Source: Macrococcoides canis
GTDB taxonomy: Bacteria; Bacillota; Bacilli; Staphylococcales; Staphylococcaceae
Reading direction: 5' to 3'
DNA: 64,000 nucleotides
NCBI RefSeq assembly: GCF_002119805.1
Contig: NZ_CP021059.1
Span: 2,046,001-2,110,000 of the forward strand
The notes below the pieces were generated by a model. It saw only the letters and a program-made list of their open reading frames with translations. It had not been told where the DNA came from and ran no database searches. Shown here in pieces: positions 4,167-51,978 of the stretch. Position numbers and translations under genes: made by a program. Position 1 is the first letter of the stretch, and every line of letters starts with the position of its first letter.

Positions 4167-5027
4167 TTATCTTCTTTTCTTCTTTTTTGAAGAAACGACT
4201 TGTGTGTTCTTTGGTTGTTTTGCACGCTCATTCTCTTCATGTGCTTCGATTAAAGGTGCAATTTCTTCATGCACTTTCTTCTTGTAGAACTTGTTTCCTA
4301 ACCAAGTTTGTACAACTAAGAAAGCTCCACCAACAGCCCAGTATAAAGGTAATGCTGCAGGAGAAATAGCTGACATCCAGACAATCATAATTGGCGAGAT
4401 GAACATCATCATACGCATCTGTGCTTTTTGTTCTTCAGGTATGTTTTGCATAGAAACATATGCCTGTAATGCATATACGATACCTGCGATAACTGTCATA
4501 GCGATATCCGTTTTCGTTAGATCAAACCATAAGAAGTTCGGATACTGTGTAATTCCGCCTTCAGTTGGATATTTTAATACATAGAATAATCCAGTAACGA
4601 TCGGCAATTGAATTAATAATGGTAAACATCCCATGTTTAATGGATTAATGCCATTATCTTTGTATAATGCCATCATCTCCTGGTTTGCTTCCATCTTCTC
4701 TTCTTGAGTGCGCGCACGCTTTACTCGTTCTTGAATTTCAGTCATCTGGGGCTTGATTAAAGCCATTTTCTCACGCATAACGCTCTGGTTCTTGTATGTC
4801 TTCATCATAAATGGGAATAGCGCTAAACGTACGATTAAGGTAATTGCAATAATCGCAAGTCCGTAGTTATGTCCCATATGTGCACCTAACCAGTGAATTA
4901 ACTGATCTAATGGATGCACAAATGTATCATAGAAAAATCCATTACGGTTTGATTCTTTTGAATAGTCACAGCCAGATAAAATTATCGCTGCAGTAAATAC
5001 TAGGAGCCATATCGACTTCTTTTTCAT
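4167..5027 (-). CDS. yidC: Membrane protein insertase YidC (lipoprotein type)
   Basis: Inserts proteins into the cytoplasmic membrane alone or with SecYEG. The 286-residue protein has a lipoprotein signal with lipobox LSGC (Cys20). The five-segment YidC/Oxa1 core begins at YGLAIIAITLIVRLALFPF, whose Arg is the hydrophilic-groove residue. An amphipathic cytoplasmic hairpin (about 85-125), NMGCLPLLIQLPIVTGLFYVL and a basic C-terminal tail rich in Lys follow. GAGGTG precedes the ATG. It is the last gene on the strand after thiE, probably with its own promoter in the AT-rich gap. Confidence 0.95.
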   Translation of the reverse strand: MKKKSIWLLVFTAAIILSGCDYSKESNRNGFFYDTFVHPLDQLIHWLGAHMGHNYGLAIIAITLIVRLALFPFMMKTYKNQSVMREKMALIKPQMTEIQERVKRARTQEEKMEANQEMMALYKDNGINPLNMGCLPLLIQLPIVTGLFYVLKYPTEGGITQYPNFLWFDLTKTDIAMTVIAGIVYALQAYVSMQNIPEEQKAQMRMMMFISPIMIVWMSAISPAALPLYWAVGGAFLVVQTWLGNKFYKKKVHEEIAPLIEAHEENERAKQPKNTQVVSSKKKKRR

Positions 5028-5113
5028 TTTTTCACCTCATAATATTATTCACATAGAGGTTATTTTATCATAAATCGAAGCATACATAAACAAAAACCAT
5101 GATATTTTACTTT

Positions 5114-5749
5114 TTACTTATAATACTGTAAGTAATCTGTAACCACTTGCTTAATATCATTGCTTCTAGCGATAGAAGAAATGGTCGAGATACCGTCAGC
5201 ACCTGAAGCGATGATCATCTCGCAGTTACTGCTCGTTATACCACCGATCGCCACAATAGGAATGTCTTCATCGTAAAGGCGCATCTTACGTATCAGTTCG
5301 ATACCACCCGGCTTTTTCGCATCGCTCTTACTACTCGTTTCATATATAGGACCAACACCTATATAGTCCACATGCGTTAAATCCGACTGATCATACTCTT
5401 CAAAATTGCCGACAGATAATCCAATGATTTTTCCCTGGAAGTCATCGATGATATTTTCTACCTTTTCATCATCCTGTCCAAGATGAATACCGTCTGCACC
5501 AATTGCTTCAGCAAGTGCAACATCATCATTGACGATAAATGGAACTTTATAGTCTTTACACAGATTAAACAAATGTTCAGCAAGCAGCTGTTTCTCTTGG
5601 CCTGTCTTTGCTTTCGGACCTTTTTCTCTGAACTGAAACATTGTTATTCCTGCTTCAAGTGCTTCTTTAAGCACACGTTCTAAGTCACCGTCAGGAACGT
5701 CAGAAGTCCCTGCAATGAAATATACGTGAAGCATCTCTCTTTTAAACAT
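5114..5749 (-). CDS. thiE: Thiamine-phosphate synthase
   Basis: Couples hydroxymethylpyrimidine diphosphate to thiazole phosphate, giving thiamine monophosphate. The 211-residue TIM barrel shows FQFREKG, VNDDVALAEAIGADGIHLGQDD and VGPIYETSSK, all family signatures. It begins two bases after the thiM stop. A second ATG at codon 6 has a purine-rich stretch, but the first start (MFKREML) matches the staphylococcal N-terminus. It is the last gene of the TPP-controlled operon. Confidence 0.95.
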   Translation of the reverse strand: MFKREMLHVYFIAGTSDVPDGDLERVLKEALEAGITMFQFREKGPKAKTGQEKQLLAEHLFNLCKDYKVPFIVNDDVALAEAIGADGIHLGQDDEKVENIIDDFQGKIIGLSVGNFEEYDQSDLTHVDYIGVGPIYETSSKSDAKKPGGIELIRKMRLYDEDIPIVAIGGITSSNCEMIIASGADGISTISSIARSNDIKQVVTDYLQYYK

Positions 5750-5752
5750 AAG

Positions 5753-6538
5753 CTACACTTCTTTCACACGTGATTCCTTTGCTATATCATCTTGTTGAAT
5801 CAAATAGAGCTGGTCTATTAAATTCACCGCAAAATGTCCTGGCAAGGTCCCATTAGCACTATGCTCAGCACGTTCTGCCGCAATCGTATAAGTCGCAATT
5901 GCTTCTGTTAATAATGCTAATGAAGGTTTAGTTTCATTATATATGAAACTTGCAACAACTGCTCCTAATAAACATCCTCCCCCTGTTACTTTCGTCAGGA
6001 GCGGTGTGCCATTTTCTACTAAAGCAATTTGTCCATCCTGACATATCGCATCAACCGCACCGGTTACGATAATCGCAGTATTGAACTTATTATATGCGCT
6101 TCGTGCGACGCTTTCCGTCGATAACGATTGATCTGCATCTGTCCCTTTCATTGTGGCATCGTCCGTTAATGCTGCGAGCTCAGACGCGTTTCCACGAATA
6201 ACACTAATATGATGCTCGTTCAGCAATTTTAAACAGAAGTCTTTACGAAACTTAGATGCACCACATGCGACAGGGTCAAGTACGATAGGCACTTGATGTT
6301 TATTTGCAAATGCAGCCGCTTGTAACATATTTTCTTTGTCTGTTTCTTCAATAGAGCCAATGTTGATTAGCAGAGCTCCTGCGTGCGCCAGAAACTCATC
6401 CATTTCCTGACGTTCTGTGGCCATCGCAGGGCTTGCTCCAAGTGCGAGCAGACCGTTCGCTGTAAAGTTTTTGACGACATCATTCGTAATACAGATGATC
6501 AGCGGGTTGTCATTACGAAGTTGATTGAGCTTTACCAT
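5753..6538 (-). CDS. thiM: Hydroxyethylthiazole kinase
   Basis: Phosphorylates 4-methyl-5-hydroxyethylthiazole for thiamine salvage. The 261-residue ribokinase-like protein contains PLIICITNDVV near the N-terminus, LDPVACGASKFR near 90 and the anion-hole/nucleotide region VTGGGCLLGAVVASF near 185. Its ATG overlaps the thiD stop by one base (TAATG), indicating translational coupling. Confidence 0.95.
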   Translation of the reverse strand: MVKLNQLRNDNPLIICITNDVVKNFTANGLLALGASPAMATERQEMDEFLAHAGALLINIGSIEETDKENMLQAAAFANKHQVPIVLDPVACGASKFRKDFCLKLLNEHHISVIRGNASELAALTDDATMKGTDADQSLSTESVARSAYNKFNTAIIVTGAVDAICQDGQIALVENGTPLLTKVTGGGCLLGAVVASFIYNETKPSLALLTEAIATYTIAAERAEHSANGTLPGHFAVNLIDQLYLIQQDDIAKESRVKEV

Positions 6539-7326
6539 TATTCTACCTCCTGAAACTTAAAGTGATTTACCGGACCATTGCCGTGCCCGATGCCAGGAGT
6601 GTACTTAATGGCCACATCCATATAGCGCTTCGCTAGCTGCACAGCATCTTCTATACTTTTACCTTTAGCGAGTTCCGCTGTAATAACGGCTGAATACGTA
6701 CAGCCTGTCCCATGTGTATGTTTCGTATTATAACGCGCTCCATGCAAAGTAATTAATCCTGTCTTCGTAAATAGATAGTCTGTTGCATCTCCCTTTAAAT
6801 GTCCACCTTTAATGAGTACACTCTCAGCGCCAATCTCATCGATAAATATTTTTCCTGCACGTGAGATATCCGCTTCTGTCTCCACTTTCATATTGATGAT
6901 CTTCTCTAATTCAGGGATATTCGGTGTCACCACAGTCGCAATATCCAGTAATTTCGTGCGTACGGCATTTTGTCCGTTCTCATCGAGCAACAAATCTCCA
7001 CTTTTAGCAACCATCACAGGATCGATGACATACGGAATGTTATAACGTTCTATATACGGTCTCACCACATCCATCACTTCACTCGTGGCTAACATACCTG
7101 TCTTTACTGCATCCGGTACAATATCTGAATATACACTTTCAAGCTGTTTCTGTATAACCTCTACCGGCTGATTAAAGACATCCTGCACACCTAATGTATT
7201 CTGTGCAACAAGACTTGTTACTACGCTCATCCCATATACTCCACGTGATTGAAAGACTTTCAAGTCCACTGTCGTTCCAGCACCACCTGTCGGATCTGTT
7301 CCAGCAATCGATAATGCAGTCTTCAT
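6538..7326 (-). CDS. thiD: Hydroxymethylpyrimidine (phosphate) kinase
   Basis: Phosphorylates hydroxymethylpyrimidine twice to the diphosphate used by ThiE. The 262-residue protein begins MKTALSIAGTDPTGGAG and has VIDPVMVAKSGD and HTHGTGCTYSAVITAELA near residue 210. A longer frame upstream exists, but GGGAGGG sits 7 bases before the ATG at 7326 and that ATG overlaps the tenA TGA by one base. The start is therefore well supported. Confidence 0.95.
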   Translation of the reverse strand: MKTALSIAGTDPTGGAGTTVDLKVFQSRGVYGMSVVTSLVAQNTLGVQDVFNQPVEVIQKQLESVYSDIVPDAVKTGMLATSEVMDVVRPYIERYNIPYVIDPVMVAKSGDLLLDENGQNAVRTKLLDIATVVTPNIPELEKIINMKVETEADISRAGKIFIDEIGAESVLIKGGHLKGDATDYLFTKTGLITLHGARYNTKHTHGTGCTYSAVITAELAKGKSIEDAVQLAKRYMDVAIKYTPGIGHGNGPVNHFKFQEVE

Positions 7327-43745: not shown

Positions 43746-43782
43746 TTGAGTGTATACGGAATTCATGCTATTATTAATTCCG
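43746..43782 (+). promoter_or_regulatory. Promoter with CymR-like inverted repeat before yrrT-mccA
   Basis: TTGAGT (43746-43751), 17-base spacer, TATTAT (43769-43774). A perfect inverted repeat CGGAATT (43757-43763) / AATTCCG (43776-43782) lies across the spacer and the start point. GGAATT is the core of the CymR cysteine-repressor motif, and CymR controls mccAB genes in Bacillus and Staphylococcus. Confidence 0.72.
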
Positions 43783-43820
43783 AGTTATCTGATATGAATA
43801 ATAAAAATAGGGGTGTATTT

Positions 43821-45341
43821 ATGAGTTTACCTTTTATGGATATATTTAAAGAATGGGCATCAGAATATGATGATGCTGTAACAGGTCAAAATCCAGAATA
43901 CAAAGATGTATTCTCCAACTACGACTTTATGATAGAAGAAGCAACAAAACATGCTGGCAAACGTGTAACAGAGTTTGGACCTGGTACAGGCAATCTAACA
44001 AACATGCTGTTAAAGCGCGGCTTAGATGTACAAGCTGTAGAGCCAAGTGTTGATATGGCAAAGTTAGGAGAAGCGAAGACTGGCATCACTTTTGAACGTG
44101 GAGATTTCCTGAACTTTAATGCGAGAGAAACAGACACCTTCATTTCTTCCTTTGCTTTTCATCATCTTACAGATAAAGAAAAGCGAGATGCCATCGCACA
44201 ATATAAACCTTTACTTTCTGAAGATGGAAATATCATTATACTCGACACAATGTTCAATTCCTTAGATGAAAAAGAACAAATTAAATCACATTACAATGCA
44301 TTAGGCTATCATAATCTTGTAGAAGATCTGGACCGAGAATATTATCCATTAAAGGAGACGATGGAAGGCATTGCGAACGACTTAGGATTCGATTATCATT
44401 CCACACAGCTGAATCGTTTCGCTCACCTTCAAATTTTAACTAAAAAAAAAGTAAAAACTCCTGCTGACCTAATCGGTAATACACCACTTGTGGAACTTAA
44501 GCATTTTCCTTTGAATAAAGGAAACCGTTTATTCGCAAAACTTGAGTTCTATAATTTGGGTGGCTCTGTCAAAGACCGACTGGGCGTCAATATTTTAGAA
44601 CAGGCATTACATCGCGGCGATATTCAAAACGGTACAGTCGTTGAAGCTACAGCTGGAAATACAGGTATCGGCCTCGCGCTCATCTGTCAACAGCATGGAT
44701 TAAAACTACGCGTCTATGTACCTGAGAAATTCAGCATCGAAAAACAAAGCATCATGCGTGCATTAGGTGCTGAAATCGTAAACACACCTACAGAAAAAGG
44801 AATGCTCTTTGCACGAGAAGAAGCGCTCAAGTTCGCTCAAGAAACCGGCGCATTCTATACGAATCAATTTGAGTCAGAAGATAATCCTTCAAGTTACGAT
44901 AAACTTGCAGACGAAATAAAAAGAGACGCTGGGAAGGTCGATGCAATCGTTGCCGGTGCAGGCAGCGGCGGCACATTTACAGGTCTTGCAAAGCACTTTA
45001 AAGAAAGTTATCGTGTTATCGTAGAGCCTGAAGGTTCAATATTAAATGGCGGAGAATCTGGAAGTCACCGTACAGAAGGTATCGGCGTTGAGAAATGGCC
45101 CGTGTTCTTACATAAAGAGTTAATCGATGCCGTTGAAACAATTTCTGATATCGATGCATTTACACGTGTCTCAGAACTTGCTCAAAAAGAAGGACTCCTT
45201 GTTGGTTCTTCAAGCGGAGCTGCTCTACATGCTGCACTTAAAATACAAGAAAATATGACTAACAGTAATATCGTCGTAATTTTTCCTGATGCAGCCGAAC
45301 GTTACTTGTCACAACAAATATTCAATATTAAAGGAGAATAA
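43821..45341 (+). CDS. mccA: Fused YrrT-type methyltransferase and MccA cystathionine beta-synthase
   Basis: Single 506-codon frame. Residues 1-207 match the SAM-dependent methyltransferase YrrT (FKEWASEYDDAVTG, TEFGPGTGNLTNMLL, SSFAFHHLTDKEKRDAI). Residues about 214-506 are a PLP enzyme of the cysteine synthase fold (DLIGNTPLVELKHF, PLP Lys251 in LGGSVKDRLG, TAGNTGIGLA, GAGSGGTFTGLA, SSGAALHA), matching O-acetylserine-dependent cystathionine beta-synthase. In Bacillus these are separate genes. The junction is nine A (44442-44450); no start codon or ribosome binding site for a free MccA is visible there. The start has GGGGTG upstream; an ATG 34 codons earlier has none. Confidence 0.85.
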   Translation: MSLPFMDIFKEWASEYDDAVTGQNPEYKDVFSNYDFMIEEATKHAGKRVTEFGPGTGNLTNMLLKRGLDVQAVEPSVDMAKLGEAKTGITFERGDFLNFNARETDTFISSFAFHHLTDKEKRDAIAQYKPLLSEDGNIIILDTMFNSLDEKEQIKSHYNALGYHNLVEDLDREYYPLKETMEGIANDLGFDYHSTQLNRFAHLQILTKKKVKTPADLIGNTPLVELKHFPLNKGNRLFAKLEFYNLGGSVKDRLGVNILEQALHRGDIQNGTVVEATAGNTGIGLALICQQHGLKLRVYVPEKFSIEKQSIMRALGAEIVNTPTEKGMLFAREEALKFAQETGAFYTNQFESEDNPSSYDKLADEIKRDAGKVDAIVAGAGSGGTFTGLAKHFKESYRVIVEPEGSILNGGESGSHRTEGIGVEKWPVFLHKELIDAVETISDIDAFTRVSELAQKEGLLVGSSSGAALHAALKIQENMTNSNIVVIFPDAAERYLSQQIFNIKGE

Positions 45342-45344
45342 ATT

Positions 45345-46490
45345 ATGCAAAAGAAAACAATGATGATTCATGGTGGAAACACTATAGATGAATATACTGG
45401 AGCGGTAAATCCTCCTATTTATCAAACAAGCACATACAAACAAGATGGTATCGGGAATATGCGTCAAGGCTACGAATACTCTCGTTCAGCAAATCCAACA
45501 CGTACAGCATTAGAATCATTAATCAGAGACTTGGAATCTGGGGATGCTGGTTTTGCATTCGGATCAGGTATGGCTGCAGTATCTTCTGTAATCATGTTAC
45601 TGAACGCTGGTGATCATATCGTTGTTGGTAGCGATGTCTATGGCGGCACTTATCGTGTGTTCACAAAAGTCTTCGAACGCATCGGTATCAAATCAACATT
45701 CGTAGATACAACGGATATTGAAGCGGTTGAAGCGGCTATCACTGAGAATACTAAGATGCTTTATATCGAAACACCTACAAACCCATTACTTAATGTAACA
45801 GATATTCGTAAGATGGTTGAAATCTCTAAAGCTCATAATTTAATTTCTGTTGTAGACAATACATTTATGACACCTTATTTCCAGAATCCACTTGAACTTG
45901 GTGCAGACATCGTGCTCCATTCAGCAACGAAATACATCGGCGGTCACAGTGATGTTGTAGCAGGTCTTGTAGTCACACGTACACCTGAGCTTTCTGAAGC
46001 AGTTGGTTTTATCCAGAACTCAGTAGGTGGTGTCCTTGGACCACAAGATAGCTTCTTACTTGTACGCGGTATCAAAACACTAGCCATCCGTATGGAACAA
46101 ACAGAGCAGTCAACTTTAAAAATTATCGACTTCCTTCAAAAACAAAGTGTTGTAACAAACATCTTCCACCCTGCACTACTCGGTGAAGCAGATAAGAAAA
46201 TACACGAATCACAAAGTACAGGTTATGGCGGAATGATATCATTTGATGTCGGATCTAAAGAAAATGCTGAAAACTTAGTGAAAGCAACAAAATATTTCAC
46301 TCTAGCAGAATCATTAGGCGCAGTAGAAAGTTTAATTTCTGTACCTAGCCAGATGACTCACGCATCAATCCCTAGAGAACGCCGTCTAGAACTTGGAATT
46401 ACTGACGGTTTAGTTAGAATCTCTGTGGGTATTGAAGATAGTGAAGACTTAATCGCAGACTTAGAACAAGCATTTAAACAATTAAACTAG
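45345..46490 (+). CDS. mccB: Cystathionine gamma-lyase / homocysteine gamma-lyase
   Basis: Cleaves cystathionine to cysteine, ammonia and 2-oxobutyrate, completing reverse transsulfuration. The 381-residue PLP enzyme of the Cys/Met metabolism family has [15 protein letters not shown], the PLP Lys in [20 protein letters not shown], and GGMISFDVG. It starts three bases after the mccA stop, with AAAGGAG upstream, so it is the next gene of the same operon. Confidence 0.93.
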
Positions 46491-46501
46491 GAGTGACTTT
46501 T

Positions 46502-46987
46502 ATGACTAAAAAAATGAACGTCGAAAGCTTTAACTTAGACCACACAATCGTCGATGCACCATTCGTGCGATTAGCTGGTATCAAAGAAGGCATCAAAGGT
46601 GATGTAATCCATAAATATGATATTCGCTTCAAACAACCGAATAAAGAACATATGGAGATGCCTGCACTACATTCATTAGAACATTTAATGGCTGAAAACA
46701 TCCGTAATCATACAGATAAAGTCGTAGATATTTCACCGATGGGCTGTCAGACTGGTTTCTATGTTTCACTTATCAATCATGACGACTACGAAGACGTGTT
46801 ATCAATTTTAGAAAAAACTTTAAATGATGTATTAGCGGCTGAGGAAGTCCCTGCTTGTAACGAAGTACAATGCGGATGGGCAGCAAGTCATTCATTAGAA
46901 GGCGCAAAAGAAATTGCCCAGGAAATGCTTTCGAAAAAAGATAGCTGGAATGTTATTTACCAACCTGGAAAAGAACCACAAGCTTAA
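46502..46987 (+). CDS. luxS: S-ribosylhomocysteine lyase
   Basis: Cleaves S-ribosylhomocysteine to homocysteine and the AI-2 precursor. The 161-residue protein has the metal ligands His57 and His61 in [18 protein letters not shown] with the catalytic Cys, and a third ligand Cys in [21 protein letters not shown] overlaps the mccB stop and is eight bases from the ATG at 46502; a GTG three codons earlier lies on the ribosome binding site. It supplies homocysteine to the two preceding genes. Confidence 0.97.
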
Positions 46988-48126: not shown

Positions 48127-51100
48127 TTATTTTCTTCTGCCGAAAAGTAACGCTAATCCTGCAAGTAATGTCAATACTCCTGCTGTGGCTACTAATCCAT
48201 TATTCGTTTCACCTGTGTCTGGTAATCCAATATTACCAGATGGTTGACCTGTACCTTTATCTTGTTTTAACCCTACAGAGCTATCAGGCATATAAGCTGG
48301 TTTATCTTTTGGCTGTGTATTATGTGGTGGTGTTATCGGTGTTTCTATGATACCTTCAATTGGTTTTTCAGGTGTATAGAATCCTGAATCTAATGTGAAG
48401 TCATCTTTATCCTTCACCGTTACCCATGTTGATGTACCGTTCGAGTCATTACCTTGGTTTCCTTTACCAACCTCAGTTGGCGTGAAACCTTTAGGCGTTT
48501 CGAATACGATTTCGTATTTACCGTTCGGCACATCCTTAAAGATATACTTGCCATTTTCATCTGTCGTCGTTGTTCGGATAACATTACCATTCTCATCTTT
48601 CAATGTTACCTTCACTCCTGGAATTCCAGGTTCGTTGCTGTCCTGTACTCCATCTTTATCTTTATCATGCCATACATAATCTCCGATATCCGGAAGGTCT
48701 TTGCCTGGCTCATTTGGAGTTATAGTATCTGATTCCTTCACAATTCCGAAGTCTACTGTCATGTTGTCTGCATCTTTAATCTCTGCTGACGTCTTCTGTG
48801 AGTTCGAGTTACCATCTACATTATCTTCGTCACTTGTTACTGGTGTACCAACATAATCTTTTGGTAGGTTTGTGAATTCTACTTCATATTTACCGTTCGG
48901 TAAGTTTTCAAAGATATAGTGACCATTCTCATCCGTTGTTGTTGTTAACTTTGTTCCATCCGGTTTCGTTAATGTCACTGTAACTCCTGGAACTGGCTTC
49001 TCGCCTGCATCCTGGATGCCGTCTTTGTCTTCGTCATACCATACGTAGTTTCCAAGATCGTATAACTTCTCTTCCTTCACAATTCCGAAGTCCACCGACA
49101 TGTTGTCTGCATCTTTAATCTCTGCGGATGTCTTCTGTGAGTTCGAGTTACCATCTACATTATCTTCGTCACTTGTTACTGGTGTACCAACATAATCTTT
49201 TGGTAGCTTTGTGAATTCTACTTCATATTTACCGTTCGGTAAGTTTTCGAAGATATAGTGACCATTCTCATCCGTTGTTGTTGTTAACTTTGTTCCATCC
49301 GGTTTCGTTAATGTCACTGTAACTCCTGGAACTGGCTTCTCGCCTGCATCCTGGATGCCGTCTTTGTCTTCGTCATACCATACGTAGTTTCCAAGATCGT
49401 ATAACTTCTCTTCCTTCACAATTCCGAAGTCCACCGTCATGTTGTCTGCATCTTTAATCTCTGCTGATGTCTTCTGTGAGTTCGAGTTACCATCTACATT
49501 ATCTTCGTCAATTGTTACTGGTGTGCCGATATAATCTTTTGGTAAGTTTGTGAATTCTACTTCATATTTACCATTCGGTAAGTTTTCGAAGATATAGTGA
49601 CCATTCTCATCCGTTGTTGTTCTATCTATTTCATTACCATCTCTATCTCTAAGAATCACTGTCACATCAGGAACTGGATTTTCATTAGAATCTTGTTGTC
49701 TATCTTTGTTATCGTCATACCATACATAGTTTCCTAAGTCATATAATTTTTCTGGTGCTTCTGTCGTTGGTGCTTCTGTCGTCGGTGCTTCTGTCGTTGG
49801 TGCTTCTGTCGTTGGTGCTTCTGTCGTCGGTGCTTCTGTCGTTGGTGCTTCTGTCGTTGGTGCTTCTGTCGTTGGTGCTTCTGTCGTTGGTGCTTCTGTC
49901 GTCGGTGCTTCTGTTGTCGGTAATTCTGTCGTCGGTAATTCTGTCGTCGGTGCTTCCGTCGTTGGTGCCTCTGTCGTTGGTATTTCTGTTGTCGGTAATT
50001 CCGTCGTTGGTATTTCTGTTGTCGGTAATTCCGTCGTTGGTATTTCTGTTGTCGGTAATTCCGTCGTTGGTGCTTCTGTCGTTGGTGCCTCTGTCGTTGG
50101 CAATTCTGTCGTCGGTAATTCTGTCGTCGGTAATTCTGTCGTCGGTAATTCTGTCGTCGGTAATTCTGTCGTCGGTAATTCTGTCGTCGGTAATTCTGTC
50201 GTCGGTAATTCTGTCGTCGGTAATTCTGTCGTCGGTAATTCTGTCGTCGGTGCTTCCGTCGTTGGTGCCTCTGTCGTTGGTATTTCTGTTGTCGGCAATT
50301 CCGTCGTTGGTATTTCTGTTGTCGGTAATTCCGTCGTTGGTGCTTCTGTCGTTGGTGCCTCTGTCGTTGGTGCTTCTGTCGTTGGTGCTTCCGTCGTTGG
50401 TAATTCTGTCGTTGGTGCTTCCGTCGTTGGTGCTTCCGTCGTTGGTAATTCTGTCGTCGGTAATTCTATCGTCGGTAATTCTGTCGTCGGTAATTCTGTC
50501 GTCGGTAATTCTGTCGTTGGTGCCTCTGTCGTTGGTAATTCTGTCGTCGGTAATTCTGTCGTCGGTGCTTCTGTCGTTGGTGCTTCCGTCGTCGGTGCTT
50601 CTGTCGTCGGTGCTTCTGTCGTTGGTGCTTCTGTTGTTGGCGCTTCCGTTGTTGGTGCCTCTGTCGTTGGTAATTCTGTCGTTGGTGCTTCTGTCGTTGG
50701 TAATTCTGTCGTCGGTAATTCTGTCGTCGGTAATTCTGTCGTCGGTAATTCTGTCGTCGGTGCTTCCGTCGTTGGTGCCTCTGTCGTTGGTATTTCTGTT
50801 GTCGGCAATTCCGTCGTTGGTGCTTCTGTCGTTGGTGCTTCCGTCGTTGGTGCTTCCGTCGTCGGCTCCTCCGTCGTTGGTGTTCCATCACCAATTCCTC
50901 CAGAAGTATTAAATTCCAAAGCATTCCCACCTGTTATCATTCCTTGATCTGAAGAGATACGGAATAATTGAGCAACTTCTGCAGTTTCACTTGTAGTAGG
51001 CGCCAGATTATCTTCCACAATTACAATAAAAGTACTTGAAGTATTACCGAAATCTATCGTAGCCGTTTCACCATTAAATGTAACTGGATAATTACCTGTA

Positions 51101-51978
51101 ACTTCCGTTGCAGTAGTATTATTTGGATCAAAATAAATACTTTCGTTCAATGTACTTCCATCAGCAATTTCAAATATCCTGATGTTAGTTGTAGCTTCAT
51201 TAATATTTGCTAAGTTACCTGGATAAGCATTTGTATTTGTAGTAATATCTAACGTTACGTTCGTTAAATCTGAATTAATCGGATTTACATATATTGTCTG
51301 AGAATAATAACCTGGATTCTCTGTATTATTCACACGAGAAACAACCTCTTCAAATACAGAAGCTGAAGTAACACCATTTACATTTTGATATGGTGCATAT
51401 TGTACATCTATATTATTGCTAGTTGTTACTCCACCAAGCGTGAATGAAAATAGCTCATCTTGGGTTTTATTTGGTACAGTCTCTCTATCAACATATAAAT
51501 TTGTATACAAGTTCATATCAATATTTTCTTTTCCATTTACGTAATCAGTAAATGTATAAGTTACTAAACCAGTATTAGGATCAAACGTCGATCGCGCGAT
51601 TACTTCACCTGTATTTGGATCCACTAAAGTCGGAAAAGCTGTAGCAGCATCTTCTGGATTTTGTTGATAATATGAAATATTGTCAGAATACGATATTGTA
51701 AAATAGTCTCCTGCACTAACAGGTCCAGTAGTACTAAATATAGACTGTAATGTTATCGCTTCACTGTTTCCATCTAAAATACCATTTCCATTTGTATCAT
51801 CTGCAGTAATGGAACTTTGTGTAGTCACTATAGAGGAATTAACATTTGTCGCTGCTTGCGCTACATTCATAAACGGATGTGTTGCCGGTAAATATGATGC
51901 TCCTAGATTTGTCATCATCAATACTGTGGTCCCAATCATCGCTTTTTTATACACTTTATTTGTTCTTTTTTCTTTCAT
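48127..51978 (-). CDS. LPXTG cell-wall anchored adhesin (MSCRAMM, Sdr-like)
   Basis: A 1283-residue surface protein. It has a signal peptide (residues 1-43, without a clear YSIRK motif) and an A region (about 45-360) containing TYTFTDYVNGKENIDMNLY, the motif of dock-lock-latch MSCRAMM adhesins. About 75 five-residue units PTTE(A/L/I) follow (about 365-744), then four SdrD-type B repeats of about 113 residues (GNYVWYDEDKDGIQD, TTTDENGHYIFENLPNGKY). The sortase signal is LPDTG, a membrane segment and GRRK. The low-complexity region separates A from B, unlike classical Sdr proteins where SD repeats follow B. It replaces nothing recognisable and looks inserted between otherwise syntenic genes. 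The ligand is unknown. Confidence 0.93.
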   Translation of the reverse strand: MKEKRTNKVYKKAMIGTTVLMMTNLGASYLPATHPFMNVAQAATNVNSSIVTTQSSITADDTNGNGILDGNSEAITLQSIFSTTGPVSAGDYFTISYSDNISYYQQNPEDAATAFPTLVDPNTGEVIARSTFDPNTGLVTYTFTDYVNGKENIDMNLYTNLYVDRETVPNKTQDELFSFTLGGVTTSNNIDVQYAPYQNVNGVTSASVFEEVVSRVNNTENPGYYSQTIYVNPINSDLTNVTLDITTNTNAYPGNLANINEATTNIRIFEIADGSTLNESIYFDPNNTTATEVTGNYPVTFNGETATIDFGNTSSTFIVIVEDNLAPTTSETAEVAQLFRISSDQGMITGGNALEFNTSGGIGDGTPTTEEPTTEAPTTEAPTTEAPTTELPTTEIPTTEAPTTEAPTTELPTTELPTTELPTTELPTTEAPTTELPTTEAPTTEAPTTEAPTTEAPTTEAPTTEAPTTEAPTTELPTTELPTTEAPTTELPTTELPTTELPTIELPTTELPTTEAPTTEAPTTELPTTEAPTTEAPTTEAPTTEAPTTELPTTEIPTTELPTTEIPTTEAPTTEAPTTELPTTELPTTELPTTELPTTELPTTELPTTELPTTELPTTELPTTELPTTEAPTTEAPTTELPTTEIPTTELPTTEIPTTELPTTEIPTTEAPTTEAPTTELPTTELPTTEAPTTEAPTTEAPTTEAPTTEAPTTEAPTTEAPTTEAPTTEAPTTEAPTTEAPEKLYDLGNYVWYDDNKDRQQDSNENPVPDVTVILRDRDGNEIDRTTTDENGHYIFENLPNGKYEVEFTNLPKDYIGTPVTIDEDNVDGNSNSQKTSAEIKDADNMTVDFGIVKEEKLYDLGNYVWYDEDKDGIQDAGEKPVPGVTVTLTKPDGTKLTTTTDENGHYIFENLPNGKYEVEFTKLPKDYVGTPVTSDEDNVDGNSNSQKTSAEIKDADNMSVDFGIVKEEKLYDLGNYVWYDEDKDGIQDAGEKPVPGVTVTLTKPDGTKLTTTTDENGHYIFENLPNGKYEVEFTNLPKDYVGTPVTSDEDNVDGNSNSQKTSAEIKDADNMTVDFGIVKESDTITPNEPGKDLPDIGDYVWHDKDKDGVQDSNEPGIPGVKVTLKDENGNVIRTTTTDENGKYIFKDVPNGKYEIVFETPKGFTPTEVGKGNQGNDSNGTSTWVTVKDKDDFTLDSGFYTPEKPIEGIIETPITPPHNTQPKDKPAYMPDSSVGLKQDKGTGQPSGNIGLPDTGETNNGLVATAGVLTLLAGLALLFGRRK
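48737..49753 (-). repeat. Three 339-bp B-domain repeats in the adhesin gene
   Basis: Units begin at about 48737, 49076 and 49415, each 336-339 bp. The first two are nearly identical at DNA level (a few substitutions), and the third differs mainly in its upstream part. Such identity suggests recent duplication or gene conversion. Confidence 0.88.
49753..50885 (-). repeat. About 75 copies of a 15-bp repeat in the adhesin gene
   Basis: On the plus strand units read GGTGCTTCTGTCGTT, GGTAATTCTGTCGTC or GGTATTTCTGTTGTC, coding PTTEA, PTTEL and PTTEI. One unit carries Ile for Thr. Blocks of several units recur, for example runs of ten L units at 50110-50250. Slippage would change length in frame. 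Confidence 0.95.

Follow-up and report, generated by a model that had tools for sequence, protein, structure and literature searches.

Are the methyltransferase YrrT and the cystathionine beta-synthase MccA joined in one protein at this locus, or do two genes only appear joined across a run of nine A? An earlier note on the 64,000-nucleotide stretch analysed here (the window) left three answers side by side: a true bifunctional enzyme, slippage at the run, and a plain sequencing error. The frame that it described is open throughout, running on the + strand from ATG 43821 to TAA 45339–45341 (43821–45341, 506 codons), with a YrrT-type methyltransferase followed by an MccA-type cystathionine beta-synthase. 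Pfam matches both domains, placing methyltransferase families inside residues 42–156 and PALP at 216–490. We consider it very probable that this gene specifies one bifunctional protein, an in-frame yrrT::mccA fusion, as the first gene of a reverse-transsulfuration operon with mccB and luxS.

A two-domain protein encoded by one frame

The gene is divided as follows.

43810–43815, + strand: ribosome-binding site of the fusion, GGGGTG 5′ of ATG 43821; purine-rich sites lie at the same place in relatives
43821–44444, + strand: YrrT-type class I SAM-dependent methyltransferase domain, residues 1–208 (Pfam; phmmer match to PDB 3hnr; invariant EFGPGTGN)
44439–44459, + strand: short basic linker, residues 207–213 (TKKKVKT), with pLDDT <50 at 212–214; mostly basic in relatives despite codon changes
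44442–44450, + strand: run of nine A in the sequence; across 16 genomes the longest run at the junction ranges from 3 to 10 A
44460–45341, + strand: MccA-type cystathionine beta-synthase domain (PALP fold), residues 214–506, and stop (Pfam; fold match 5b1h; K251 invariant)

A longer ORF of 540 aa from TTG 43719 was rejected: the ribosome-binding site precedes ATG 43821, and no upstream start is common to the relatives. The predicted structure, built from 17 sequences, has two domains with a weak spot at 212–214 (mean pLDDT 79.5, pTM 0.56). Pfam at E 0.001 places no CBS-pair (Bateman) domain in the protein. At the same threshold, the matches in the window genome are one fusion, one relative of 40% identity labelled CysK-like and one PALP match that is more distant; this genome has no further MccA-like gene above 40% identity, and YrrT has no second match there at E 0.001. 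A distant additional PALP gene (30% identity) lies on the second contig (152 kb) of genome G008 (L020).

Conservation of the fusion in three genera

The fusion is real and conserved, and marks the Macrococcus group. All nine genomes of the window's genus carry it at full length (residues 1–506) free of stops. Across the family it is found in 16 of 108 genomes, filling three genera (9/9, 6/6 and 1/1) and missing from the other two (0/8 and 0/84); in these 92 genomes, among the matches listed, alignments begin at residue 183 or later. Searching the order with the methyltransferase half yielded one further fused genome, G108, from another family, with a frame of 504 aa that is followed by mccB and luxS when the locus is read. 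In a class-wide sample, in which a very divergent fusion could escape detection, at least 7 of 398 genomes hold the full-length protein, all from the three fused genera, the other best E-values among the matches listed being 2.4e-99 or weaker. Plasmid records matching the fusion number 157, none covering >80% of the protein.

Eighty loci with yrrT divide into 11 fused ones (Macrococcoides or Macrococcus; these belong to the 17 fused genomes and are not counted twice) and 69 with a separate yrrT. On the matched strand, the frames of >300 aa that hold two of five reference enzymes combine YrrT and MccA only (n = 11). Three genomes with apparent frames of 685–700 aa around MccA proved on reading to have MccA frames of 332–379 aa, and are not fused.

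The earlier note had proposed comparing the run and the fusion across related Macrococcus genomes, naming relatives with eight A and a separate mccA start as evidence against its proposal. What the comparison gives is a run that varies and a fusion present in all 16 genomes of the three genera, with no such relative among them. For annotation, the gene should neither be called a frameshift nor be named by one half only.

The junction: free MccA, slippage or error

Between codons 201 and 240 the window gene offers two in-frame starts, GTG 224 and TTG 231, neither with a Shine–Dalgarno-like site. Most of the 17 fused genomes have such an unaided ATG, GTG or TTG in this interval; a Shine–Dalgarno-like site accompanies an in-frame start there in 0/17. 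Since no junction start is aided in this way in any fused genome, the fusion is most likely the only form in which MccA is made; as MccA is conserved, this would imply that the fusion is translated. Comparison of 11 species pairs gave, before and after the junction alike, dN values much lower than dS, with dS close to saturation in several cases; for the window against G008 the dN/dS values are 0.037/0.894 and 0.020/0.479, one pair per side. The sequences show both halves to be under purifying selection.

The nine A are exactly as first described, at 44442–44450 in the phase AAA AAA AAA GTA. The predicted effects of a length change also hold: one A fewer brings TAA directly after the run, giving 210 residues, and one A more, expected to reach a TGA within six codons, does so at the fifth codon after the run. 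Over the window gene as a whole, however, the background rate of a stop arising at once after a one-base shift is 6–7%, so the coincidence with a lost base is weak by itself.

Among 16 genomes, the window included, the longest A-run at the junction measures 9, 9, 10, 5, 9, 9, 7, 8, 3, 3, 6, 5, 5, 6, 6 and 3, and is thus ≤6 in nine. Even equal runs can differ in phase: the nine A of G006 and G007 read GAA AAA AAA ACA, unlike those of the window. AAG is among the linker lysine codons in 11/17 fused genomes, the codons changing synonymously while the linker stays basic. One lost base leads to an immediate stop in 6/17 genomes, two of which (G001 and G003) have runs of ≤5 and 3 A, and one gained base does so in 4/17, counts that are inflated by relatedness among the genomes.

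These data bear on the proposal that the run is a selected slippage device yielding a free 210-residue methyltransferase alongside the fusion. It finds some encouragement in A9 of the window and G008 and in A10 of G004, where loss of one base brings TAA immediately in each case, and in the nine A of G006 with TAA one codon later, making four of 17 genomes with a run of 9–10 A and a stop at once or one codon on; given no separate mccA start, the shortened product would be methyltransferase only. Against this, the longest run varies from 3 to 10 A and is ≤6 in most genomes measured, immediate stops after a lost base occur also where there is no long run, and both halves are conserved even where no run exists. 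Tested across the fused genomes, a slippery run combined with an out-of-frame stop is not conserved. As a working switch that gives both products, slippage is hence unsupported, and we regard a selected device as highly improbable. Accidental slippage is possible from the DNA in the four genomes just named, and may occur wherever 8 to 10 A stand consecutively, with no sign of selection for it. The run is most readily understood as a by-product of a linker rich in lysine.

The same variation in length, from 3 to 10 A, disfavours a selected switch and rules out a miscalled run. Long A-runs are prone to errors in some sequencing technologies, and a sequencing or assembly error could in principle join two separate genes. 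Yet 16 other assemblies show this frame uninterrupted as well, most of the runs measured are of six A or fewer, and no fused genome offers the aided in-frame start at codons 201–240 that a separate mccA might use; error as an explanation is refuted by the relatives, and we give it next to no weight.

The methyltransferase half

Two families exceed their cut-offs in this half (PF13649, E 3.4e-10; PF08241, E 8.5e-8), and the SAM-binding motif EFGPGTGN is invariant in 17/17 fused genomes. The nearest solved structure by sequence is PDB 3hnr (phmmer, E 1.9e-42), the probable methyltransferase BT9727_4108, which resembles the YrrT half but, unlike the fusion, stands alone with 220 residues. The fold matches listed are taken up by one domain, and the methyltransferase half is absent from them; its family assignment rests on sequence.

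Identity to the free YrrT of yrrT-mtnN/luxS-mccAB operons is ~40–47%, and in a tree the fused half groups with 27 operon YrrT proteins, six free Staphylococcaceae relatives falling outside the group (SH-aLRT 88). Nine residues beyond the SAM motif (F5, F9, W12, Y16, H114, H115, E173, Y174 and Y175) are invariant in 16 rows, 11 fused and 5 from free relatives. No report identifying YrrT's methyl acceptor is known to us.

Genus g5, presumably Staphylococcus, has a free YrrT-like methyltransferase (40–45% identity) in 14/84 genomes (L070–L082, L100–L105). In the six loci read it does not lie beside mccA, and in the tree it stands apart from operon YrrT.

The MccA half

PF00291 (PALP) covers this half with E 1.3e-64, and the PLP-binding lysine K251, in GGS(V/I)KDR, is invariant in 17/17 fused genomes. 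By fold, the first match is a cystathionine beta-synthase from Lactobacillus plantarum (5b1h; Z 34.1, rmsd 2.6, 290 aligned, 49% identity), and the Helicobacter pylori enzyme 6ahi, by title an O-acetylserine-dependent cystathionine beta-synthase, is close behind (Z 33.1, rmsd 2.6, 289 aligned, 48% identity). Both share fold and sequence with the MccA half alone, having no methyltransferase part, unlike the fusion. Many O-acetylserine sulfhydrylases (31–42% identity) have fold Z scores tied with or slightly below those of the synthases. The best solved structure by sequence is 5xw3, named an O-acetylserine lyase (E 1e-92), ahead of 5b1h (E 4.8e-80), and the NCBIfam models TIGR01137 (cystathionine beta-synthase), cysK and cysM all match below their cut-offs.

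Because sequence, fold and NCBIfam results do not separate synthase from sulfhydrylase, the predicted cystathionine beta-synthase reaction rests on tree, operon and kinship. In the tree, the 17 fused MccA rows fall with 36 free MccA rows, and four CysK-like rows from the same genus stand apart (SH-aLRT 100).

Origin of the fusion

At the 69 separate loci, yrrT precedes mtnN, luxS or the pair of them, or has mccA as its direct neighbour, with mccB coming later. Direct yrrT–mccA neighbours occur in L144, L165 and L168, whose listed ORFs are 96, 63 and 29 bases apart; the mccA ORF of L165 is long, so its true start probably lies further downstream.

Quick trees of the two halves drew on 27 of the 69 separate loci, together with 8 free YrrT-like and 9 free MccA rows of other genomes. 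The 17 fused methyltransferase halves form one group (SH-aLRT 99), as do the fused MccA halves (SH-aLRT 90), with eight free Staphylococcaceae MccA proteins beside the latter (99). The trees support a single origin of the fused family, and the separate-gene outgroups, adjacent yrrT–mccA pairs included, illustrate its likely precursor.

In an rpoB tree of 29 genomes, 9 of them fused, G108 is placed outside the Staphylococcaceae sampled (n = 21; 100/99), and a single group of the nine fused genomes is rejected (p-AU 4.5e-7). By its MccA half, G108 is nested with two of the three fused genera (98/99; p-AU 0.017 for the 16 others as one group), in a tree that omits G146, whose row is long, and every Bacillus-type row; G108 itself has a long branch. 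The tree of the methyltransferase half gives G108 no resolved position. The simpler reading is that G108 acquired the fused operon by transfer; the alternative is an older fusion that was lost in genera g3 and g5. G146 (L106), of another family of the same order, carries mccA-mccB-yrrT as separate genes at 4206–6988 on the - strand.

A join of this kind might also be neutral, a tolerated deletion between neighbouring genes that brings no benefit. Few events would be needed, because adjacent yrrT–mccA pairs exist, and the fusion is 13–22 residues shorter than the separate proteins summed in the five pairs compared. Set against this are its retention in all 16 genomes of three genera and its presence, possibly by transfer, in one genome of another family. 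We hold a neutral fusion to be unlikely.

Proposed function of the fused protein

Our preferred reading remains a bifunctional protein. The earlier note had offered this as one option, and the full-length frame conserved in relatives supports the fusion itself; both enzyme activities are predicted from homology. The N-terminal domain would use S-adenosylmethionine to methylate an acceptor, releasing S-adenosylhomocysteine, which MtnN (encoded elsewhere) and LuxS (two genes downstream) would convert to homocysteine. The C-terminal PLP domain would then condense homocysteine with O-acetylserine to cystathionine, from which MccB would release cysteine. The tether would hold SAM commitment and homocysteine capture for cysteine at a 1:1 ratio, and may also keep MtnN and LuxS close by; any such benefit is conjecture.

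With the MtnN and LuxS reactions intervening, the two halves are unlikely to hand metabolites directly to each other, and the suggestion that the fusion channels SAM-cycle sulfur is in its strict sense unsupported. The roles left to the tether are a fixed ratio, a common location and SAM-responsive control. We prefer the first two, given that conservation in common with free relatives extends to residues outside the SAM motif.

Animal cystathionine beta-synthase has a SAM-binding regulatory domain at its C terminus. By analogy, the methyltransferase half could serve mainly as a SAM/SAH-sensing regulatory domain of the MccA half; the fused steps are non-consecutive, which fits regulation as well as catalysis, and the animal enzyme provides the precedent. 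The nine invariant residues outside the SAM motif are, however, what a working acceptor pocket would lead one to expect, and we think a mainly regulatory role very unlikely. A wider reading, in which a SAM/SAH-sensing methyltransferase sets synthase activity or the protein is the core of a YrrT–MtnN–LuxS–MccA assembly, also strikes us as quite unlikely. Were sensing the true role, bacteria would have arrived independently at a counterpart of the SAM-regulated animal enzyme.

For the bifunctional reading, a natural fusion of the SAM-spending and homocysteine-capturing steps is evidence that YrrT serves the methionine-to-cysteine route, and offers one protein in which to assay its part.

Relation to known systems

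The methionine-to-cysteine pathway has been described in Bacillus (PMC3519770) and in clostridia (PMC2940859). The Bacillus yrrT-mtnN-mccA-mccB operon has the same enzyme families, with the methyltransferase first and mccA before mccB. In the sections of PMC3519770 covered, its genes are separate, YrrT and MccA among them as the earlier note had stated, whereas here yrrT and mccA are one gene, mtnN lies elsewhere and luxS is third. The clostridial ubiG-mccBA-luxS operon likewise begins with a methyltransferase, contains mccA and mccB and ends with luxS; it differs, in the portions of PMC2940859 covered, in having separate genes, mccB before mccA and T-box control, with no fusion mentioned.

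The fusion is not described in the literature searched by title and abstract, a scope outside which most subscription journals lie. Nor is it mentioned in the parts covered of PMC3519770, PMC2940859, PMC6302742 and PMC7358451, or in the CymR passages of PMC2869319 and PMC4265319. As far as these searches show, the enzymes and the operon are known and the fusion is a new arrangement of them: a well-supported protein fusion, not a new kind of system.

The operon and its upstream region

The fused gene is flanked by the following features.

43746–43774, + strand: promoter-like site, TTGAGT, 17, TG-TATTAT (inferred from a consensus scan)
43774–43800, + strand: conserved operator-like element with a conserved core, overlapping the promoter, possibly a CymR-type box
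45345–46490, + strand: mccB, cystathionine gamma-lyase / homocysteine desulfhydrase (NCBIfam NF005810, 632.5 bits, cut-off 594)
46502–46987, + strand: luxS, S-ribosylhomocysteine lyase (NCBIfam NF002604, 220.3 bits, cut-off 158)

The order of fusion, mccB and luxS is kept in 17/17 fused genomes. In 9/9 genomes of the genus, MtnN scores over its family cut-off and is located outside the operon.

The promoter-like site is weak evidence taken alone, because the scan of the region returned 14 such sites against 10.3 expected; the stretch around its second hexamer is conserved across the aligned upstream regions. The operator core, TAAT(T/C)CCGA(G/C)T, is exact in 15/17 upstream regions and has one mismatch in the remaining 2, and a genome search allowing up to 3 mismatches finds the element a single time. 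At ≤2 mismatches, the core precedes 29 of 66 free yrrT genes (a raw count, from the 69 loci less two that were too short and L138), mostly as TAATTCATAGT 50–60 bases upstream. It precedes 2 of 14 free Staphylococcaceae mccA genes against 1.4 expected from simple shuffles. The element is placed where a CymR operator would be expected, and naming CymR is a guess, because the free-mccA comparison is near chance with the pattern used; the literature search yielded no CymR binding motif.

Adjoining the fused operon, a SAM riboswitch (RF00162, 73.6 bits) lies at 42999–43095 on the - strand, before a divergent gene at 41734–42930. In 11/17 fused genomes (L087–L093, L095–L098), ORFs of ~220–264 and 542–556 residues stand upstream of the fusion; L094 has the large one only, and the window, its three nearest relatives and G108 are without the pair. 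Downstream, at 48127–51978 on the - strand, lies a surface-type protein of 1283 residues with long PTTE(A/L/I) repeats and LPDTG near its end, whose further repeats we take to be of the Sdr B-type.
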